From positions 150,519-214,518 of the forward strand of contig JAAYCX010000012.1 of NCBI GenBank assembly GCA_012729555.1: a stretch of 64,000 nt of DNA, given 5' to 3'. Positions within the stretch are counted from its first letter, which is position 1, and each line of letters opens with the position of its first letter. Under the pieces are notes generated by a model. That model worked only from the letters and a program-made list of their open reading frames with translations. It was not told the origin of the DNA and did not search any database. The stretch comes from Acidobacteriota bacterium (GTDB lineage Bacteria > Acidobacteriota > UBA6911). Below, piece after piece: positions 27,164-44,880 of the stretch. The translations under genes and the position numbers were made by a program.

Positions 27164-27733
27164 TCAGTAGAGCTTGAAGAACAGCGTCCTGCCGCGCCCG
27201 GTGGCGCCCCCCGTATCCGGATCGAACACCATGACGGGCTTCGGGTCCTTCTCCGCCACCGCGAAGGCGACCCAACCTTCGATCGACCCGCCCGGCTTCA
27301 CCACCCCGGCCAGGGGCGGCGCGGGCACCTTGACCGGCACCCGCTCGTACTCGGTCAGATCCTCCGAGAGCGCGACCCATTCGAGCGGCGACTCCCCTAG
27401 GCTGAAGGTGAGGGTGTCGCTGACGGCCCTCCCCTTCAGCTCGAACCTGACCCGCGCCAGGATATATTCCATCCCCGCCCGGGGTGCCGGGTTGTCCCGA
27501 TCGGCCGCCCGGAGGCGCTCGAGCGCCGCCGGGCCGCGCACGGTTTCGATCACGGTGACGGCGATGTCGTAGATGTTCGAATAGACCGATCCGAGTTCGA
27601 CCATGGACCGCACCCGGGAACCGACGGCAGCCGGTTTCGTCGAGGAATTCTCCTGCGCCGCCGCCGGTTTCAGACCGCCTGCGGCCGCCAGCGCCAGGAT
27701 CCCTGCCACAAACACTGCGAATCTGCTTTTCAT
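27164..27733 (-). CDS. Exported protein of unknown function, linked to the UGSC selenoprotein
   Basis: 189 residues. A signal peptide (KSRFAVFVAGILALAAAGGLKPAAA) is followed by a beta-rich domain (SMVELGSVYSNIYDIAVTVIE, GMEYILARVRFELKG, GGSIEGWVAFAVAEKDPKPVMVFD) that resembles DUF4352/immunoglobulin-like exported domains, including the G-W-V-A-F core. No catalytic residues are evident. It begins 13 bases after the UGSC selenoprotein stop on the same strand and has GGAAGAGGAG before its ATG, so the two are one operon and may work together in the periplasm. Confidence 0.72.
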   Translation of the reverse strand: MKSRFAVFVAGILALAAAGGLKPAAAQENSSTKPAAVGSRVRSMVELGSVYSNIYDIAVTVIETVRGPAALERLRAADRDNPAPRAGMEYILARVRFELKGRAVSDTLTFSLGESPLEWVALSEDLTEYERVPVKVPAPPLAGVVKPGGSIEGWVAFAVAEKDPKPVMVFDPDTGGATGRGRTLFFKLY

Positions 27734-27746
27734 AGGTCTCCTCTTC

Positions 27747-29528
27747 CTATCTCCAGTCATCCACGCTGGCGCTCCCCACATAGCCGAAATCCCCGCCGGA
27801 CCAGAAGGTGTTCGTGCCCCCTCCCGTGACGACGATTTCAATGGATGTGGAGGTCTCGTTGCTGTCCTTGGACGCCATGAATGCCGGGTTGCGCCCGGCG
27901 GCGGCGCCGCGGGTGTAGCGGGAAACGGGAACCACCGCCCCCTCGCCCTGCCGGAGCCAGCCGGCGTAGGGCTGCACCCCCTTTTTCGCCTGCTCCAGCG
28001 CCTTCTCGTTCTGGGACCAGTAGAGCCACCCCGGCGTTCCGGTGTTTTCGGCAAGGTATTTAGCGAACGATTCCTTGGTGGGGTGGCCGCTGGCCGCCAC
28101 GTCCGCCGCGACGATCGGGTCGAGGACGAGGGTGGCCTGGGTCGTGCCGAAGGAGAAGAAATGCTCGAGCCACCCCCGGATGACCTCGTGAATCGGCAGC
28201 GGCGAGTACCACGCGATGTCGCTCATGCTCCAGCCGCTGAAGACGCTGACGACGCTGTCCGATTTCTTGAATCCCTTCTGCACGTGAAGCGGCTTCCAGC
28301 CCGCCGGCAACCCCGCCTCGTTTTCGGGGAAACAGAGGTTGTTGTAGTTCAGGGGATTCCCCTGACTCCCGAGGTAGGTTTCCCCCGGTTTGCCCGAGCC
28401 GCCGAGATTCCTGGAAATCAGGGTCCAGCACCGGCCGATGGCGCTGTTGGCCCGGGATACCGGTCCCATGGCCCCGATCCCCGTGTTCATCCCGATTTCG
28501 TCCACGACCGGCCCGTTGACCACGACCATCCGGGCGAAAGACGAAGTGGAACTGAACATCGAGGTGACCCCCTTGCCCGCCAGGGCCAGGATGGTAGGGA
28601 AATATTCCGGCTTTGCGCCCGCCATCACGGCGTTCACGGCCACCATCTCGACGGTGTAATACCAGGCTTCGTGCGGGGGGGAGGGGCGCATCTGTCCCAC
28701 CCACTCGTCCGGCTGGCGGCTCGTGGCCTTCAGCATCTCGGCGACCCTTTCCTCGGTCGGCAGGATGACGGGATTGCCGTCGGTGAACCCCTGCTCGTGG
28801 AAATACTCCATGAGCCTGTCGGGGGTGTCGGGCGGCAGGAGCCGCGTCCGCTCCTCCCGCGGGAGAAAACCGGCCTTGCCGTCCTCGGCCGACAGGGGGC
28901 GGCTCAGCCCGGCGTATATCTGCCCGAGCATCGGCTGACCCGAGTTGGGATCGTTCCCGGCGATATACTGGCGGCACAGTTCCGCCGGACGGTCGGTGAT
29001 GGGATGGGGGGTATAGGTGATCCGCATGTTGGGGATCCCCTTCTTGTAGGAGATCGTGGTCACGAGCTCCTTGAAACGCGCCGTGATGATGGGGACCGCG
29101 GGAACGCCCATTCTTTCCAGGGTCACTGCGTGGCCGACGACCGCCGGCGAGCAGCTGCTTCAATGCCCCACCAGGACGATGGCCCCAGCGGCCTTCGCCT
29201 TGATCTCCTTCCAGAGGTTCGGGTCGTCGTCCATGTAACCGCCGAACTTGTCCTTCAGCACCCAGGTCGTCGCCGGATACTTCGCCTTGAGGGCCGCATG
29301 GAGCTCCTCGACAAACGGCTTCGTATTCGGATACTTGGTGTCCACGATGTAGACCGTCTTGCCGTCGAGCGAAGCGGGACGCGCCGCCATCGGAATCTTG
29401 CGAATTTCGGGCTTGATCCCCTGGGGGTTCATCACCACTATCCGGTCCGGGTCCGCCGTCCATCCGATCGACGCGGCCGCAGCCGCCACGAGGGCGAGGC
29501 CCATTATTTTGACCGCCATGTTTTTCAT
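27747..29528 (-). CDS. Exported UGSC-family selenoprotein with C-terminal domain of unknown function (Sec123)
   Basis: 593 residues if TGA at 29162-29160 is read as selenocysteine. A signal peptide (MAVKIMGLALVAAAAASIGWTA) precedes a UGSC-like domain with the typical VYIVDTKYPNTKPFVEELHAAL and ATTWVLKD segments. The motif reads IVLVGH-U-SSC-SPAVVGHAVTLERMGVPAVPIITARF, that is U-S-S-C. After about residue 185 a second domain of some 400 residues (TDGNPVILPTEERVAEML, NAVMAGAKPEYFPTILALA, GPVVDEIGMNTGIGAMGP) matches a widespread uncharacterised family. GGGAGG precedes the ATG at 29528. Without Sec the gene would split into a 122-residue stub and a headless domain. Confidence 0.85.
29133..29148 (-). 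promoter_or_regulatory. Bacterial SECIS candidate of the UGSC gene
   Basis: On the minus strand GCCGGC (29148-29143) pairs with GTCGGC (29138-29133, one G-T pair) around the tetraloop GGTC. The loop begins 17 bases after the TGA with G first. Confidence 0.6.
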
Positions 29529-29779
29529 GCCGCCTACCTCCCGCTGAATGAGTTGGAGCCGCCGCCTCGGATCTCCCCGCGTGGCCCTGGAACCTATTAA
29601 AGCACAAACCGGCCCGGTCCTCCCGTCCAAATCGGGGCACCCCGTCGGAAACGGCGCCGCCGGCGCAAAAAGGGATAGCCGATTAGGCCATCGGGCCCCG
29701 CGTATGGTATTCTTCCCTGTTTGGTGAAATATGAATTCAAGACGCAATACCTGTGCCACCCCGCCCCCGGTTTGTCATC

Positions 29780-30142
29780 ATGCATGAACTGGGCATCGCC
29801 GAGAACATCCTGGAAATTGTCCGGCAGTCGATCCCCGAAGGACTGGCCCGGGACATCCGGAAAATCAGGGTCCGGGTCGGGCGGTTCGCGGGAGTGGTCC
29901 CCGATTCGCTCGATTTCTGTTTCGGCGTGATGGCGGGGGAATCGGAAATGCCGGGGGCGGCGCTCCTCATCGAGGAGGTGCCCACGTCCTGCCGCTGCCG
30001 GGGGTGCGGACGGGAATTCGAGCTGGAAGAACTGGTGTTCCTCTGCCCCCACTGCGGCGGCTCCGACCTGGAGGTGATTTCGGGCAAGGAACTGGAGGTC
30101 GTGGACATCGAACTGGTGGATCATGGCGGTGAGGCCTTATGA
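29780..30142 (+). CDS. hypA: Hydrogenase nickel insertion protein HypA
   Basis: 120 residues. MHELGIAENIL gives the N-terminal nickel-binding Met-His, and two CxxC pairs (CRGC near residue 75 and CPHC near 93) form the zinc site. HypA delivers Ni2+ to the large subunit of [NiFe]-hydrogenases together with HypB. The start at the ATG at 29780 is fixed by the required M-H-E; upstream in-frame codons would block nickel binding. First gene of hypABFCDE, overlapping hypB by 4 bases. Confidence 0.95.
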   Translation: MHELGIAENILEIVRQSIPEGLARDIRKIRVRVGRFAGVVPDSLDFCFGVMAGESEMPGAALLIEEVPTSCRCRGCGREFELEELVFLCPHCGGSDLEVISGKELEVVDIELVDHGGEAL

Positions 30143-30795
30143 GCATAGTGACCATTGAGCGGAAAGTACTCGAAAAGAACGACCAGATCGCCGAGCGGAA
30201 CCGGCGCTTCTTCCGGGACCGGGGGATCTTCGTCCTGAATCTCGTCAGCAGCCCGGGCGCCGGCAAGACCTCCATCCTGGAAAGGACTTTCGAGCGGCTG
30301 CGGGACGGCTGCAGGATGGCCGTCATCGAGGGGGACGTCCAGACCGACCTGGACGCGCAGCGCGTAGCCGAGTACCAGGTCCCCGTGGTCCAGATCGTGA
30401 CCATGGGGGGCTGCCACCTCGAGGCGGGCCTGGTGGCCGACGCCATGGGGAAGCTGGACCTGGACTCCGTCGACCTGCTCTTCATCGAAAATGTCGGAAA
30501 CCTGGTCTGCCCTTCCGGCTACGACCTCGGGGAGGCGCTGAAGGTGGTGGTCCTGAGCACGACCGAGGGGGACGACAAACCCCTGAAATACCCGGCGATG
30601 TTCCGCAACGCGTCGGTCCTCATCATCAACAAGACCGACCTGGTCCCCTACGTGAACTGCCGGCTCGACGTCCTGCGGGGCAACGCCCTCAAAATCAACC
30701 CCGACCTCCGGGTTTTTGAAATATCCTGCCAGACGGGCGCCGGAATCGACGCCTGGTGCGAATGGCTCAGGGGGAAGGGCGCTTCCGGGCAGTGA
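30139..30795 (+). CDS. hypB: Hydrogenase nickel insertion GTPase HypB
   Basis: 218 residues. The P-loop reads NLVSSPGAGKTS, the Mg2+/switch region VIEGDVQTDLDAQR, the metal site MGGCHLEAGL and the base-specific NKTD motif at IINKTDLVPY. HypB hydrolyses GTP to drive nickel insertion with HypA. It lacks the His-rich nickel-storage N-terminus of some homologues and starts directly with ERKVLEKNDQIAERNR. Its ATG overlaps the hypA stop and its own stop lies close to hypF. Confidence 0.96.
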   Translation: MSIVTIERKVLEKNDQIAERNRRFFRDRGIFVLNLVSSPGAGKTSILERTFERLRDGCRMAVIEGDVQTDLDAQRVAEYQVPVVQIVTMGGCHLEAGLVADAMGKLDLDSVDLLFIENVGNLVCPSGYDLGEALKVVVLSTTEGDDKPLKYPAMFRNASVLIINKTDLVPYVNCRLDVLRGNALKINPDLRVFEISCQTGAGIDAWCEWLRGKGASGQ

Positions 30796-30803
30796 TTCAA
30801 AGG

Positions 30804-33137
30804 ATGCGGATCACCATCCAGGGAGCGGTCCAGGGGGTCGGTTTCCGCCCTTTTATCCACAGGCTCGCTTCCGGGATGGGTCTCACCGGATCGGTCCGGA
30901 ATTCCTCCCAGGGGGTTTTCATCGAAGTCGAAGGGGAGCAGGCGCTGCTCGACTCCTTCCTCCTCCGGATCGAGAGGGAGAAGCCGGAGCTCTCCTCCAT
31001 CCAGAGCCTGGAATATTCCATCCTCGACCCGGTCTTCTCCCGGGGGTTTGAAATCGGGCCGAGCGCGGCGGCGGGGGAGACGAACGCCCTGATCCTGCCC
31101 GACATCGCCACCTGCGACGCCTGCGCCCGCGAAATCATGGACCCCTCCAACCGCCGCTACCGCTACCCGTTCACAAACTGCACGCGCTGCGGTCCGCGCT
31201 TCACCATCATCGAATCGCTCCCCTACGACCGGCCCAATACCTCCATGAAGTCGTTCGAGATGTGCCCCCGCTGCCGGGCCGAATACGAGGACCCGGCCGA
31301 CCGCCGCTTCCACGCCCAGCCGAACGCCTGCCCCGTGTGCGGCCCGCGGCTCGAGCTCGAGGACTCCTCGGGACGGACCGTCGCCGAAGACGGCGGGGCG
31401 CTCGAGGCGGCGGCCGGGGCGGTGCTTGGGGGGAAGGTTGTCGCCGTCAAGGGCCTGGGGGGCTTCCACCTCATCGCCGACGCCACCCGGGCCGGATCGG
31501 TCGAAACCCTCCGGCAAAGAAAGCACCGGGAGGAGAAGCCCTTCGCCCTCATGTTCCCCTCGCTCGACGCCGTGCGCGCCGAGTGCCTCGTCTCCCCGCT
31601 CGAGGAGCGGGTGCTCCGGTCCCCCCAGTCCCCCATCGTCCTGCTCGCGAGAAGAACGGACCTCCCGTCGGCCCTGCCCGAAGGGGTCGCCCCGGGCAAC
31701 CCCTTCCTGGGGGTGATGCTGCCCTACACGCCGCTGCACCACCTGCTGATGCACGCGATCGGCCGCCCCGTCATCGCCACCAGCGGGAACCTCGCGGACG
31801 AACCGATCTGCATCGACGAGGCCGAAGCCCTCGGGCGCCTCGAGGGGATCGCCGATCTCTTTCTCGTGCACGACCGGCCGATCGTGCGGCACGCGGACGA
31901 TTCCATCGTCCGGATCGTCCTCGGGCGCGAGCTCGTACTGCGCCGTGCCCGCGGCTACGCCCCCCTCCCCTTGCGCCCGCACGGGATCGTTTCCAACATC
32001 CTGGCCGTCGGCGGGCACCTGAAAAACACCATCGCCGTCTCCGTCGGCGGGAATGTTTTCCTCAGCCAGCACATCGGGGACCTGGAAACGGCGCAGTCGA
32101 CCGCGGCCTTTCGCGGGGCGATCGAGAGCTTCCTGCGCCTCTACCCGATGCGGCCGAAGTGGATCGCGGCCGACAGGCATCCCGATTACGCCTCGAGCCG
32201 GTACGCCCGGGCGGCCGGCATCCCGCTGATCGAAATCCAGCACCACCACGCCCACGTCGCCGCCTGCATGGCTGAGAACGAACTGGAGGGGGATGTCCTC
32301 GGGGTTTGCTGGGACGGCACCGGGTACGGGGAGGACGGCGCCGTCTGGGGGGGGGAATTTCTGCGGACGGAAGGAACCGGGTTCGCCCGGGTGGCCGCGA
32401 TGCGCCGGTTCCGTCTGCCGGGGGGCGACCGGGCGGTCAGGGAGCCGCGGCGCTCGGCCCTCGGGGTGCTGTACGAGATCCTGGGCAACGCCGTCTTCGG
32501 GGAAACCGGTCTCGCGCCGGTCCGGGCCTTCAGCGCGGCCGAACTCCCCGTCCTCGGCACGATGCTGCTCCGGGGGATCCACTCCCCCTGGACGACAAGC
32601 GCGGGGCGGCTTTTCGACGCGGTGGCGTCCCTGGCCGGGTTGCGCCAGAGGCTCCGGTTCGAGGGCCAGGCGGCCATGGAGCTGGAGTTCGCCGCGGAGG
32701 GGACGGGGGCGGACGCCTACCCCTTCGGGATCCTGGACCCGGAGCGCCCCGGGGGGGGGCCGCTCGGCGTGGACTGGGAACCCCTCATCCGGGCCGTCAT
32801 CGCCGATGTCCGCGCCTCCGCCCCCCCGGCGAAAATCTCCGGGAGGTTTCACAACTCTCTGGCGGACATCATCGTGGCGGTGGCGCGGAGGGTGGGAGCC
32901 CCGTGCATAGCCTTGACCGGGGGGTGCTTCCAAAACAAAATACTGCTGGAGCGGGCCGTGGGGAGGCTGCGCGAGGAGGGGTTCCGCCCCTACTGGCACC
33001 AGCGGATTCCGCCCAACGACGGCGGCATCGCACTGGGGCAGATCGCGGCGGCGTCGCGCTCTCTCGGCGCGGGCGAAACCAACGATTCCATCATCGGGGG
33101 AGGGGACCATGTGTCTGGCGGTTCCGGGAAAGATTGA
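30804..33137 (+). CDS. hypF: Carbamoyltransferase HypF
   Basis: 777 residues, a usual length. Domains in order: acylphosphatase (about 1-90, GAVQGVGFRPFIHRLA), paired zinc fingers (CDACAREI...CTRCGPRF and CPRCRAEY...CPVCGPRL, about 105-180), YrdC-like (GGFHLIADATR, PLRPHGI) and Kae1-like carbamoyl-transfer domain (HHHAHVAACMAENE, GVCWDGTGYGEDGAVWGGEF). It turns carbamoyl phosphate and ATP into the thiocarboxamide on HypE that becomes cyanide. A GTG at 30792 overlapping the hypB stop is an alternative start. Confidence 0.95.
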   Translation: MRITIQGAVQGVGFRPFIHRLASGMGLTGSVRNSSQGVFIEVEGEQALLDSFLLRIEREKPELSSIQSLEYSILDPVFSRGFEIGPSAAAGETNALILPDIATCDACAREIMDPSNRRYRYPFTNCTRCGPRFTIIESLPYDRPNTSMKSFEMCPRCRAEYEDPADRRFHAQPNACPVCGPRLELEDSSGRTVAEDGGALEAAAGAVLGGKVVAVKGLGGFHLIADATRAGSVETLRQRKHREEKPFALMFPSLDAVRAECLVSPLEERVLRSPQSPIVLLARRTDLPSALPEGVAPGNPFLGVMLPYTPLHHLLMHAIGRPVIATSGNLADEPICIDEAEALGRLEGIADLFLVHDRPIVRHADDSIVRIVLGRELVLRRARGYAPLPLRPHGIVSNILAVGGHLKNTIAVSVGGNVFLSQHIGDLETAQSTAAFRGAIESFLRLYPMRPKWIAADRHPDYASSRYARAAGIPLIEIQHHHAHVAACMAENELEGDVLGVCWDGTGYGEDGAVWGGEFLRTEGTGFARVAAMRRFRLPGGDRAVREPRRSALGVLYEILGNAVFGETGLAPVRAFSAAELPVLGTMLLRGIHSPWTTSAGRLFDAVASLAGLRQRLRFEGQAAMELEFAAEGTGADAYPFGILDPERPGGGPLGVDWEPLIRAVIADVRASAPPAKISGRFHNSLADIIVAVARRVGAPCIALTGGCFQNKILLERAVGRLREEGFRPYWHQRIPPNDGGIALGQIAAASRSLGAGETNDSIIGGGDHVSGGSGKD

Positions 33138-33357
33138 GAGCATCGACAGCACCGATCCGGTGTTTCGCAGCGGAAAGGTCAATTTCGGCGGGATCCTCAA
33201 GGAGGTCAACCTCGCCTACGTGCCGGAAGCGGACGTAGGGGACTATGTCCTCGTGCACGTCGGGTTCGCCATCAGCACCATAGACGAGGCGCAGGCGGAG
33301 GAGACGCTTTCGTACCTCGAGGAGATGGACCGGCTGGCCGGGGTGGATAACCGATGA
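33109..33357 (+). CDS. hypC: Hydrogenase maturation chaperone HypC
   Basis: 82 residues starting [13 protein letters not shown], with the essential Cys2. HypC carries the Fe(CN)2CO unit with HypD and delivers it to the hydrogenase large subunit. The gene overlaps the end of hypF by 29 bases in another frame and ends overlapping hypD by 4 bases (ATGA), so expression is tightly coupled. Confidence 0.95.
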
Positions 33358-34445
33358 AGCATATCGACGAATACCGCGACGGGACCGCCGCCCGGGCCTG
33401 CGCGGAGGCGATCGGCAGGATCACCACCGGGCCCTGGACGATCATGGAAGTATGCGGCGGACAGACCCATTCCATCGTCAAGTTCGGCATCGACGAGCTG
33501 CTCCCCCCCGCCGTCACCCTGGTCCACGGCCCCGGATGCCCCGTATGCGTCACGGCGCTCGAGTATGTCGAAAAGGCGATCGAAATCGCCTCCGTCCCCG
33601 GGGTCTGCTTCTGTTCCTTCGGGGACATGCTGCGGGTCCCGGGGATTTCCCGGGACCTTCTCTCGGTCAAAGCGGCGGGAGGGGACGTGCGCATCGTCTA
33701 CTCGCCCCTCGACGCGCTCCGGCTGGCCGCGGCCCATCCCGACCGCGAGGTCGTGTTCTTTGCCGTGGGGTTCGAGACCACGGCGCCCGCCGTCGCCATG
33801 GCCGCCTATCAGGCCGTCCGGCAGGGGGTGCGTAATTTTTCCATGCTGGTGTCCCACGTGCGCGTCCCCCCGGCCATGGAAGCGGTCCTCTCTTCCCCCG
33901 GCAACCGGGTCCAGGGTTTTCTGGCGGCGGGTCATGTGTGCGCCGTGATGGGAACGTCCGAATACGGGCCGATCGCCTCCCGCTACCATATCCCCATCGT
34001 GGTCACGGGATTCGAACCGGTCGATATCCTGCAGGGGCTCTACATGTGCCTGAGGCAGCTGGAACAGGGGCGGGCGGAGGTGGAAAACCAGTACTCCCGC
34101 TCGGTGCGTCCCGAAGGGAACCCCGCCGCCCGGAAGCTGATGGGGGAGATATTCCGGGTGGTCCCGCGCAAGTGGCGCGGGATCGGGGAAATCGCCCGGA
34201 GCGGCCTGGGCCTCAGGGAGGAATACGCCTCGCTCGACGCCGAGACCCGGTTCGGCGTCGCCCACCGCACGACCGAGGAGCCGCCGGAGTGCCGGAGCGG
34301 CCTGGTCCTGCAGGGGATCCTCAAGCCCCGCGAATGCCCCGAGTTCGGCACCCGCTGCACCCCGGAACACCCCCTGGGAGCGACGATGGTGTCGTCCGAG
34401 GGGGCCTGCGCCGCCTACTATCATTACAGGAGAAGAAGAAGCTGA
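33354..34445 (+). CDS. hypD: Hydrogenase Fe-ligand assembly protein HypD
   Basis: 363 residues. Family motifs: [14 protein letters not shown], the Cys motif [41 protein letters not shown], and C-terminal Cys residues of the [4Fe-4S] cluster ([22 protein letters not shown], ending CTPEHPLGA). HypD is the scaffold on which CN and CO are attached to iron. The ATG at 33354 overlaps the hypC stop. Confidence 0.95.
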
Positions 34446-42981: not shown

Positions 42982-44880
42982 ATGAAGCACGTAATCGCGG
43001 GGACGGCGGGGCACATCGACCACGGCAAGAGCGCGCTGGTCCGCGCGTTGACGGGGGTCGACCCTGACCGCCTGAAGGAGGAGCAGCAGCGGGGCATCAC
43101 GATCGACCTGGGGTTCGCCCACCTCGACCTGGGGGACGTCCAGGTCGGGTTCGTGGACGTGCCGGGGCACGAGAAATTCGTCAAGAACATGCTCGCCGGG
43201 GTGGGGGGCATCGATTTCGTGCTCCTGGTCATCGCCGCCGACGAATCGATCATGCCGCAGACGCGGGAGCATTTCGACATCTGCCGCCTCCTCGGGGTGA
43301 GCGCCGGGATCGTCGTCATCAACAAGGTCGACCTCGTGGACCCGGAGATGCTGGAACTGGTCGTCGACGAGGTGACCGAAGCGATGGCCGGGTCCTTTCT
43401 GGAAAAAGCCGAAATCATCCCCGTCAGTTCCAGGACCGGCGAGGGGATCGAACAGCTGAAGCGCTCGATCCACGACCTGGCGCTGGCCGCCCCCCCGCGG
43501 CCCGGAAACAGGCTGCTCCGGCTTCCGATCGACCGTGCCTTCAGCATCCACGGTTTCGGCACCGTGGTGACCGGCACGCTGACCTCGGGCGAGATCCAGA
43601 AGGACCAGGAGATCGAATTCGTACCGGGCGGACTGACGGCCAAGGTGCGCGGGCTGCAGGTGCACGGCCGGATGACCCCGCGGGCGGTGGCCGGCCAGCG
43701 CACGGCGGTCAATCTCCAGGGGATCGACCTCGCCCAGGTGGAACGCGGAATGGTCGTGACGGTCCCCCGCCTCTTCCGCCCCACGCAGATCCTGGATGTC
43801 CGGTTGTCGCTCCTGCCCGACGCCAAGCCGCTGCGGAACCTGGTCAAGGTCCGCTTTCACCAGGGGACGCTGGAAGTGCTCGCGCGCGTCGCCCTCCTCG
43901 GGCAGGACACCCTCGCCCCGGGGGAGACCGCCTACGCCCAGCTGAGACTGGACGCCCCCGCCTTCTGCCTCCACGACGACGCCTTCATCATCCGGCGCTT
44001 CAGCCCCACGATCACCATCGGCGGCGGCCGCGTCCTCCACCCGAACCCGTCCAAGCACAAGAGCACCGACGGGCGCACCCTCGCCGCGCTCAAGGAGCTG
44101 GACCGGGGGGGACTCGAAGCCAAGATCCCGGTGCTCATCGCCACCGACGCCAAGCGGGCGGTGACGGTGGGGGGGCTGAATTCGCTCCTGGGGCTGCCGG
44201 GGGCCGAAATCACCCGGATCTGCGCGGAACTGGCGAAAGCGGGGCGCATCGTCATGATCCCGGCGCCTTCCCCCATCCTGACCCTCCCCTCGGTGGTGGC
44301 CGACCTGCAGGAGGAGACCCTGGCGCGCGTCGCCGCGTTCCACAAGGACAACGAGCTGCAGCGGGGGATATCGAAGGAGGAGCTGCGCAAGCGTTTCTAC
44401 GACGACGTCCCCCTCGAGGTGTTCCGCCACTGTCTCGACCGGATGGTGGAAGCGCGGCAGATCGTTTTTCTCGGGGAGGCGGTCTCCCTCTACGGCAGGG
44501 AAATCCAGCTGTCGGAGGAGGAGGAGACACTCCGGGAGATGATCGAAGCCGCGGTCCTCGAGGCCGCCTACCAGCCCCCCGCCATGGCCGAACTCCAGGC
44601 ATCCATTCGGGCGGACGCCGAGGCGGTCCGCCGGATCTTCTTCTGGATGCTGAAGGAAAAGATCCTGGTGAAGCTGTCCGACGACCTCATCTATCACCGC
44701 GAAACGCTCGAGGAAATGAAGGGGCGGATCCGGGCGGCGTACGCCCCGGGGGCCCGGTTCGGGGTAGCCGACTTCAAGGACCTTTTCGGAATCACGCGCA
44801 AACACGCCATCCCCCTGCTCGAACACTTCGACCGGGAGAAATTCACGCGCCGCCTGGGCAACGACCGGGTCCTGGTGTAG
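42982..44880 (+). CDS. selB: Selenocysteine-specific elongation factor SelB
   Basis: 632 residues. The GTPase part has [18 protein letters not shown], the switch region [29 protein letters not shown] and [10 protein letters not shown]. Beta-barrel domains follow ([19 protein letters not shown]), then four winged-helix repeats at the C-terminus (about 375-632, ending [27 protein letters not shown]) that bind the SECIS stem-loop. It delivers Sec-tRNA to in-frame UGA codons, explaining the three TGA-containing genes here. ATG at 42982 with GGAG 5 bases upstream. SelA, SelD and tRNA-Sec are not in the window. Confidence 0.97.

Follow-up and report, generated by a model that had tools for sequence, protein, structure and literature searches.

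A Predicted Exported UGSC-Family Selenoprotein Fused to a Large Partner Domain and Its Paralogues in an Uncultured Acidobacterial Genus

Introduction

Selenoproteins are usually few in a genome, with mostly one copy per family, and exported ones are known, such as formate dehydrogenase-N/O and the [NiFeSe] hydrogenases. The record bacterial selenoproteomes, with 46, 57, and 63 genes, consist of distinct sets of families (PMC12013277, PMC13188914). In glycine and proline reductases, a selenocysteine (Sec) enzyme operates with a dithiol donor and cleaves a C–N bond (PMC10298544), and a GrdB-like pair has been proposed as a fluoroacetate reductase (PMC10838667). Closest to the locus described here is the UGSC family (PF24696/NF041046), with its U-x-x-C motif and single in-frame TGA. 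In 2008, Zhang and Gladyshev described a fusion of UGSC to a domain termed Unknown_1, which also occurs alone, and assumed a thioredoxin-like fold for UGSC (PMC2398784).

Results and Discussion

The window, by which we mean the whole 64,000-nucleotide stretch analysed (G000:C12:150519-214518), belongs to a 3.83-Mb assembly that is 98.9% complete with 2.7% contamination. A single minus-strand frame of 593 residues contains one in-frame TGA, at codon 123 within a USSC motif (Table 1). The residues around this codon are VGH-U-SSCSPAVVGHAVTLERMG, and the signal-like N-terminus reads MKNMAVKIMGLALVAAAAASIGWTA|DPD. The original prediction, which described one frame running from a signal peptide through the TGA into a large domain, is confirmed as real and far above chance: its coordinates are as described, and the UGSC profile spans the TGA. 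The partner gene of 189 codons begins 13 nt after the selenoprotein stop. It ends with a TGA that is an ordinary stop within the same operon, and the reading of TGA is therefore context-dependent. Divergent from this operon lie hydrogenase-maturation genes, assigned by sequence as hypA, hypB, hypF, hypC, and hypD (29753–34445, +).

Table 1. Positions of the selenoprotein operon features and of selB in the window
Feature	Position	Strand	Basis
Fused selenoprotein gene, 593 aa, Sec at residue 123 (ATG 29528–29526; TAG 27749–27747)	27747–29528	-	Sequence, PF24696 match, paralogues, synonymous constraint
Shine-Dalgarno-like GGGAGGT, purine-rich, 7 nt 5′ of ATG	29536–29542	-	Sequence
Predicted signal peptide, residues 1–25: two Lys, then hydrophobic stretch	29454–29528	-	Hydrophobic N-terminus in orthologues complete at that end
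UGSC domain, residues 32–187, predicted flavodoxin-like α/β	28968–29435	-	Profile match; model
In-frame TGA read as selenocysteine, U123 of U-S-S-C	29160–29162	-	Paralogues, constraint
Putative SECIS region, first ten codons 3′ of TGA	29130–29159	-	Synonymous-constraint peak; folds
Putative SECIS hairpin (GGUC apical loop, 29139–29142)	29133–29148	-	Folds
C-terminal domain U1, residues about 222–593; separate gene in other bacteria	27750–28865	-	Sequence
Predicted exported 189-aa partner, predicted β-sandwich like Bacillus YjhA/YcdA	27164–27733	-	Model; 9/9 orthologous loci
selB, selenocysteine-specific elongation factor	42982–44880	+	380 bits, cut-off 242

The assignment of TGA 123 as a selenocysteine codon is well supported by several lines of evidence. 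The genome encodes selA, selB, selD, and a tRNA-Sec with anticodon UCA; selB lies inside the window, 13 kb from the selenoprotein gene. The selD gene (G000:C9:39575-40507; L100, L103) has its own in-frame TGA, which would make SelD itself a selenoprotein. Bacterial selenoprotein genes are recognised by a SECIS element just 3′ of the UGA together with the Sec machinery, and here we find a constraint peak, hairpins, and selA/selB/selC/selD. Across 12 orthologous genes, synonymous-codon identity in the ten-codon window from the TGA is 0.91, compared with 0.52 over the whole gene, ranking first of 531 windows. The near-invariant stretch that follows the TGA, GCC GGC GGU CGU CGG C, can be drawn as a stem with a GGUC loop. 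Folding of 18 paralogues pooled against synonymous recodings gave a modest z of about −2.5, and the constraint peak is the stronger SECIS evidence of the two. The window copy folded alone looks unstructured (z +1.6, not significant). We did not rely on single-copy values, because GC-rich shuffles themselves fold strongly, and used synonymous constraint among orthologues instead.

Comparison of the copies agrees with this assignment. PF24696 matches residues 32–187, across the TGA, at 104.5 bits (gathering score 25; E = 9e-30). Each of the 18 paralogues, the window gene included, contains a single TGA, located at the position equivalent to codon 123, and the U and the C of the motif are present in every one. 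Homologues in Gammaproteobacteria and in other Acidobacteriota that are divided between two genes are divided where the two domains meet, and their UGSC gene keeps its TGA; this check, suggested with the original prediction, came out in its favour. It is thus exceedingly improbable that the TGA is an ordinary stop ending a 122-residue protein, with a second protein starting downstream, for example at GTG 29126, as a standard-code listing of open reading frames would divide the gene: the UGSC domain extends across the codon, which the 18 paralogues and the orthologues retain, the peak of synonymous constraint falls at precisely this point, and the full Sec machinery is encoded.

Membership of the UGSC family, also proposed originally, is borne out by the profile score and the U-x-x-C motif with its in-frame TGA. 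The domain is the same as in the described family, but in other genera the known-type members that we found are short, consist of this domain alone, and have a UGSC motif, whereas the window protein is predicted to be exported, is fused, has USSC, and scores 73.3 bits on the NF041046 equivalog model, below the 125-bit cut-off. USSC had been noted as a variant; it turns out to be nothing special, one of ten U-x-x-C forms in this genome. The x-x dipeptides of the 18 copies are SS (4), DG (3), GS (3), SV (2), SQ, PG, WG, SL, HG, and DS, with U and C fixed.

The expansion of the family in this genus, which had escaped the first reading together with the nearby selB, is extensive. The 18 copies in the 3.8-Mb genome are full-length or nearly so, the other 17 being 31–77% identical to the window copy; one distant homologue in the same genome lacks a TGA. 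According to the Pfam model, each of the ten genomes of the genus has 10–21 UGSC matches. Among 139 other relatives just 9 have UGSC, with one or two matches each, and where listed these have one TGA and mostly short frames. In the tree, the copies group with their counterparts from sister genomes, and since these orthologous groups are common to the genus, the expansion is an old one, with every copy maintained. Strain mixing was ruled out as the source of the 18 copies by the 31–77% identity, the genus-wide orthologous groups, the presence of three copies on the window's own contig, and the contamination of 2.7%. No relative was found on viral contigs. An orthologue 80% identical and accompanied by the partner gene (L033) occurs in a record titled Deltaproteobacteria, which may be a mislabelled MAG or a case of transfer.

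The selenoprotein is predicted to be exported, as originally suggested. Orthologues that are not truncated at the N-terminus likewise begin with a hydrophobic stretch, and a signal-like hydrophobic N-terminus after Lys/Arg residues is present in 16 of the 18 copies (all except L042 and L045), a count for which the start of L051 was adjusted by eye. The view that exported Sec is unusual is less well supported, given the precedents above.

The predicted exported partner is conserved, in line with the original prediction: it lies immediately 3′ of the fusion at all nine of the nine orthologous loci whose sequence reaches that far, and it also stands 3′ of the closest paralogue of the fusion in the same genome. 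It is limited to these two groups and so does not belong to the system as a whole. It is probably an accessory of the window ortholog group only. Its model (pLDDT 78) is a β-sandwich resembling Bacillus YjhA and YcdA, with a suggestive E of about 1e-3, and a role in stability or anchoring would be a guess. A third partner homologue, 38% identical, lies at G000:C12:47513-48037 (L059, L102), about 2.3 kb from selA, with no UGSC gene beside it.

The large C-terminal domain, which we call U1, spans about 370 residues and belongs to no known family, as had been claimed; sequence searches of Pfam, NCBIfam, and PDB gave no relative. In four Gammaproteobacteria, U1 has a gene of its own, which lies immediately upstream of a UGSC gene containing GD-U-GSCSTC. 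The same gene pair is found in other Acidobacteriota (L104, L107, L108, L110, L111, L090) and once, as a standalone pair, within the genus (L109); U1 thus stands beside a TGA-containing UGSC gene at loci L035–L038, L090, L104, and L107–L111. The fusion therefore joins two proteins that had already worked as neighbours. As a fusion it is not new: the UGSC/Unknown_1 protein of 2008 (PMC2398784, Figure S1A) likewise combines UGSC with a large unknown domain that also occurs alone, and Unknown_1 is likely U1. Export, amplification, and motif diversity, by contrast, are features of the window family that do not figure in the accessible part of its text.

Across 23 sequences, the strictly conserved positions of U1 are D250, P253, P257, V301-M302-A303-G304, G339, P356, N361, G365-R366, E402, P471, and G481. 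U1 has no invariant Cys, its model is of low confidence, and it is without a known relative, so a pyruvoyl-type cofactor finds no support. In two Acidobacteriota, an AhpC/TSA-Redoxin domain (CPTC or CDTC) is fused to the N-terminus of U1, and the gene lies beside one for UGSC (L108:6283-7920, L111:5093-6730); in L109 a pyridine nucleotide-disulphide oxidoreductase gene of the thioredoxin-reductase type adjoins UGSC. Together, this fusion and this neighbour point to reduction by a dithiol.

Built from 20 sequences, the fusion model shows the UGSC domain with confidence but U1 poorly (mean pLDDT 64), and a fold claim for U1 was dropped because the confidence was too low. The modelled UGSC domain resembles flavodoxin, not thioredoxin, with alternating β-α units and Sec after the third strand at a helix start; its best PDB match is a flavodiiron/flavodoxin core (E = 5e-4). 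The thioredoxin fold assumed in PMC2398784 finds no support, since residues 50–190 of the model form alternating β-α units and the best PDB matches include flavodoxin domains.

In a single profile comparison by hhalign with Acidobacterial GrdB-type sequences (PF07355), the domain places Sec on Sec and Cys on Cys over 141 columns (E = 3e-5, probability 47%, few sequences). We take this as moderate evidence that the UGSC domain may be homologous to the Sec domain of GrdB/PrdB. GrdF/GrdB models match the window protein weakly (TIGR01917, E = 0.12). Both families have a Sec domain with a UxxC motif, which may be homologous, and a two-subunit logic. However, PF07355 itself matches neither the window protein nor any other protein of its genome, and the window protein differs in lacking the GrdB N-terminal region, in its predicted export, and in U1, which has no family match to GrdE or PrdA. 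Short Acidobacterial GrdB/PrdB-like proteins with an in-frame TGA and a UPMC or UPNC motif were also seen (L062, L065, L070). FarB/FarE, the proposed GrdB-like fluoroacetate reductase, offers a precedent for amplified, substrate-diversified GrdB-type selenoproteins in catabolism, but it has another partner subunit, belongs to another phylum, and sits in an operon with radical SAM and transporter genes (PMC10838667).

From these features, we propose that the proteins act outside the cytoplasm as substrate-specific, dithiol-driven, Sec-dependent reductases made of fused UGSC and U1, a proposal to which we give almost an even chance. The extracytoplasmic selenoenzyme would be a fusion of two subunits that are separate genes elsewhere. 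UGSC would supply a small Sec subunit of flavodoxin-like fold, akin to the Sec domain found in proline reductase and in protein B of glycine reductase, and U1, with its 370 residues, would make up the greater part of the substrate site. A selenolate at the start of a helix, that of residue 123, would attack the substrate, the Cys three residues later would resolve the intermediate as a selenenylsulfide, and a dithiol of the thioredoxin or periplasmic thiol-reductase type would re-reduce it. The simplest reason for the 10–21 lineages in the genus, with their differing x-x dipeptides and U1 sequences, would be that each acts on its own small organic substrate. Of all this, the Sec codon, the constraint on the SECIS, the Sec machinery, the paralogy, and the alternation of fusion and gene pair are seen in the sequences themselves, export and fold are predicted, and the reaction, electron donor, and substrates are what we infer.

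The neighbours of the UGSC copies are mostly catabolic: tungsten-type aldehyde oxidoreductases (AOR) with an Fe-S protein, Mo hydroxylases, aldo/keto reductases, CoA transferases, and CoA ligases. Four of the genome's 18 AOR genes stand within 4 kb of a UGSC copy (expected 0.9, P = 0.01, at a distance picked after the data had been seen; P is about 0.03 at 3, 6, and 10 kb), an association that involves a minority of the copies. At L029, the UGSC, partner, Fe-S protein, and AOR genes make up a single run. These catabolic neighbours and the dithiol links are consistent with substrate-specific reductases. With its 18 AFOR_N (aldehyde ferredoxin oxidoreductase) genes, the 3.8-Mb genome is unusually rich in tungsten enzymes, and some of these genes lie beside Fe-S proteins that carry an SRR-type (Tat-like) signal and look exported.

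The same genomic features bear on two other functions. The proteins may instead be general extracytoplasmic thiol-selenol oxidoreductases, in which U-x-x-C acts on protein disulfides, sulfoxides, or peroxides in repair or folding and U1 recognises protein clients that differ by copy. The resemblance of UxxC to thioredoxin-type motifs, the Redoxin domains fused to U1 in L108 and L111, the predicted export of 16 of 18 copies, and the thioredoxin-like fold assumed in the accessible text of PMC2398784 all speak for such a role. We nevertheless regard it as rather unlikely, because the predicted UGSC fold is flavodoxin-like, catabolic neighbours and the cytosolic gene pairs elsewhere fit substrate metabolism better, and eighteen paralogues are many for housekeeping redox. 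Binding or detoxification of metals or metalloids (Hg, As, Se) by exported selenol-thiol proteins is improbable: surface selenols bind soft metals, and several relatives were sampled, to judge in part by isolate names, from sulfidic springs and digesters, but no resistance genes were noticed beside the copies and the conserved 370-residue partner domain has invariant non-Cys polar residues.

Homologues that have lost Sec add a further aspect. Among the copies without TGA examined in sister genomes, no Cys-for-Sec homologue was found; the position is Leu, Ser, Asp, or another residue, or the motif is lost. Several homologues in sister genomes, all of them without the U, have mostly lost the C as well. 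As replacement of Sec by Cys was not seen, selenium chemistry is arguably needed where it is kept, and the copies that lost U suggest that U1 may have a Sec-independent role. In the window genome, a fusion homologue without signal peptide lacks both U and C (L055:4672-6384, G000:C11). Clusters of fusion homologues without TGA or Cys (L085, L086, L082) show apparent loss of Sec with U1 kept, and one member without TGA has a twin-arginine-like signal.

Implications

The genus-wide amplification, the predicted export, and the motif diversification appear to be new. On a broader reading, which we regard as somewhat less likely than not, one uncultured acidobacterial genus possesses a large set of extracytoplasmic Sec reductases with a chemistry like that of GrdB, diversified so that each cleaves or reduces an organic substrate of its own, and some of them work together with exported tungsten enzymes. 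That a 3.8-Mb genome has eighteen copies of a single family, diverged, orthologous, and in most cases predicted to be exported, means that selection has time and again retained an expensive amino acid for a single kind of reaction, with no replacement of Sec by Cys seen. The links to the gene pair, the thioredoxin fusion, and GrdB give a concrete, testable mechanism for the UGSC family, which is abundant in metagenomes and functionally undefined, and the genus appears to have a large repertoire of selenium enzymes outside the cytoplasm.
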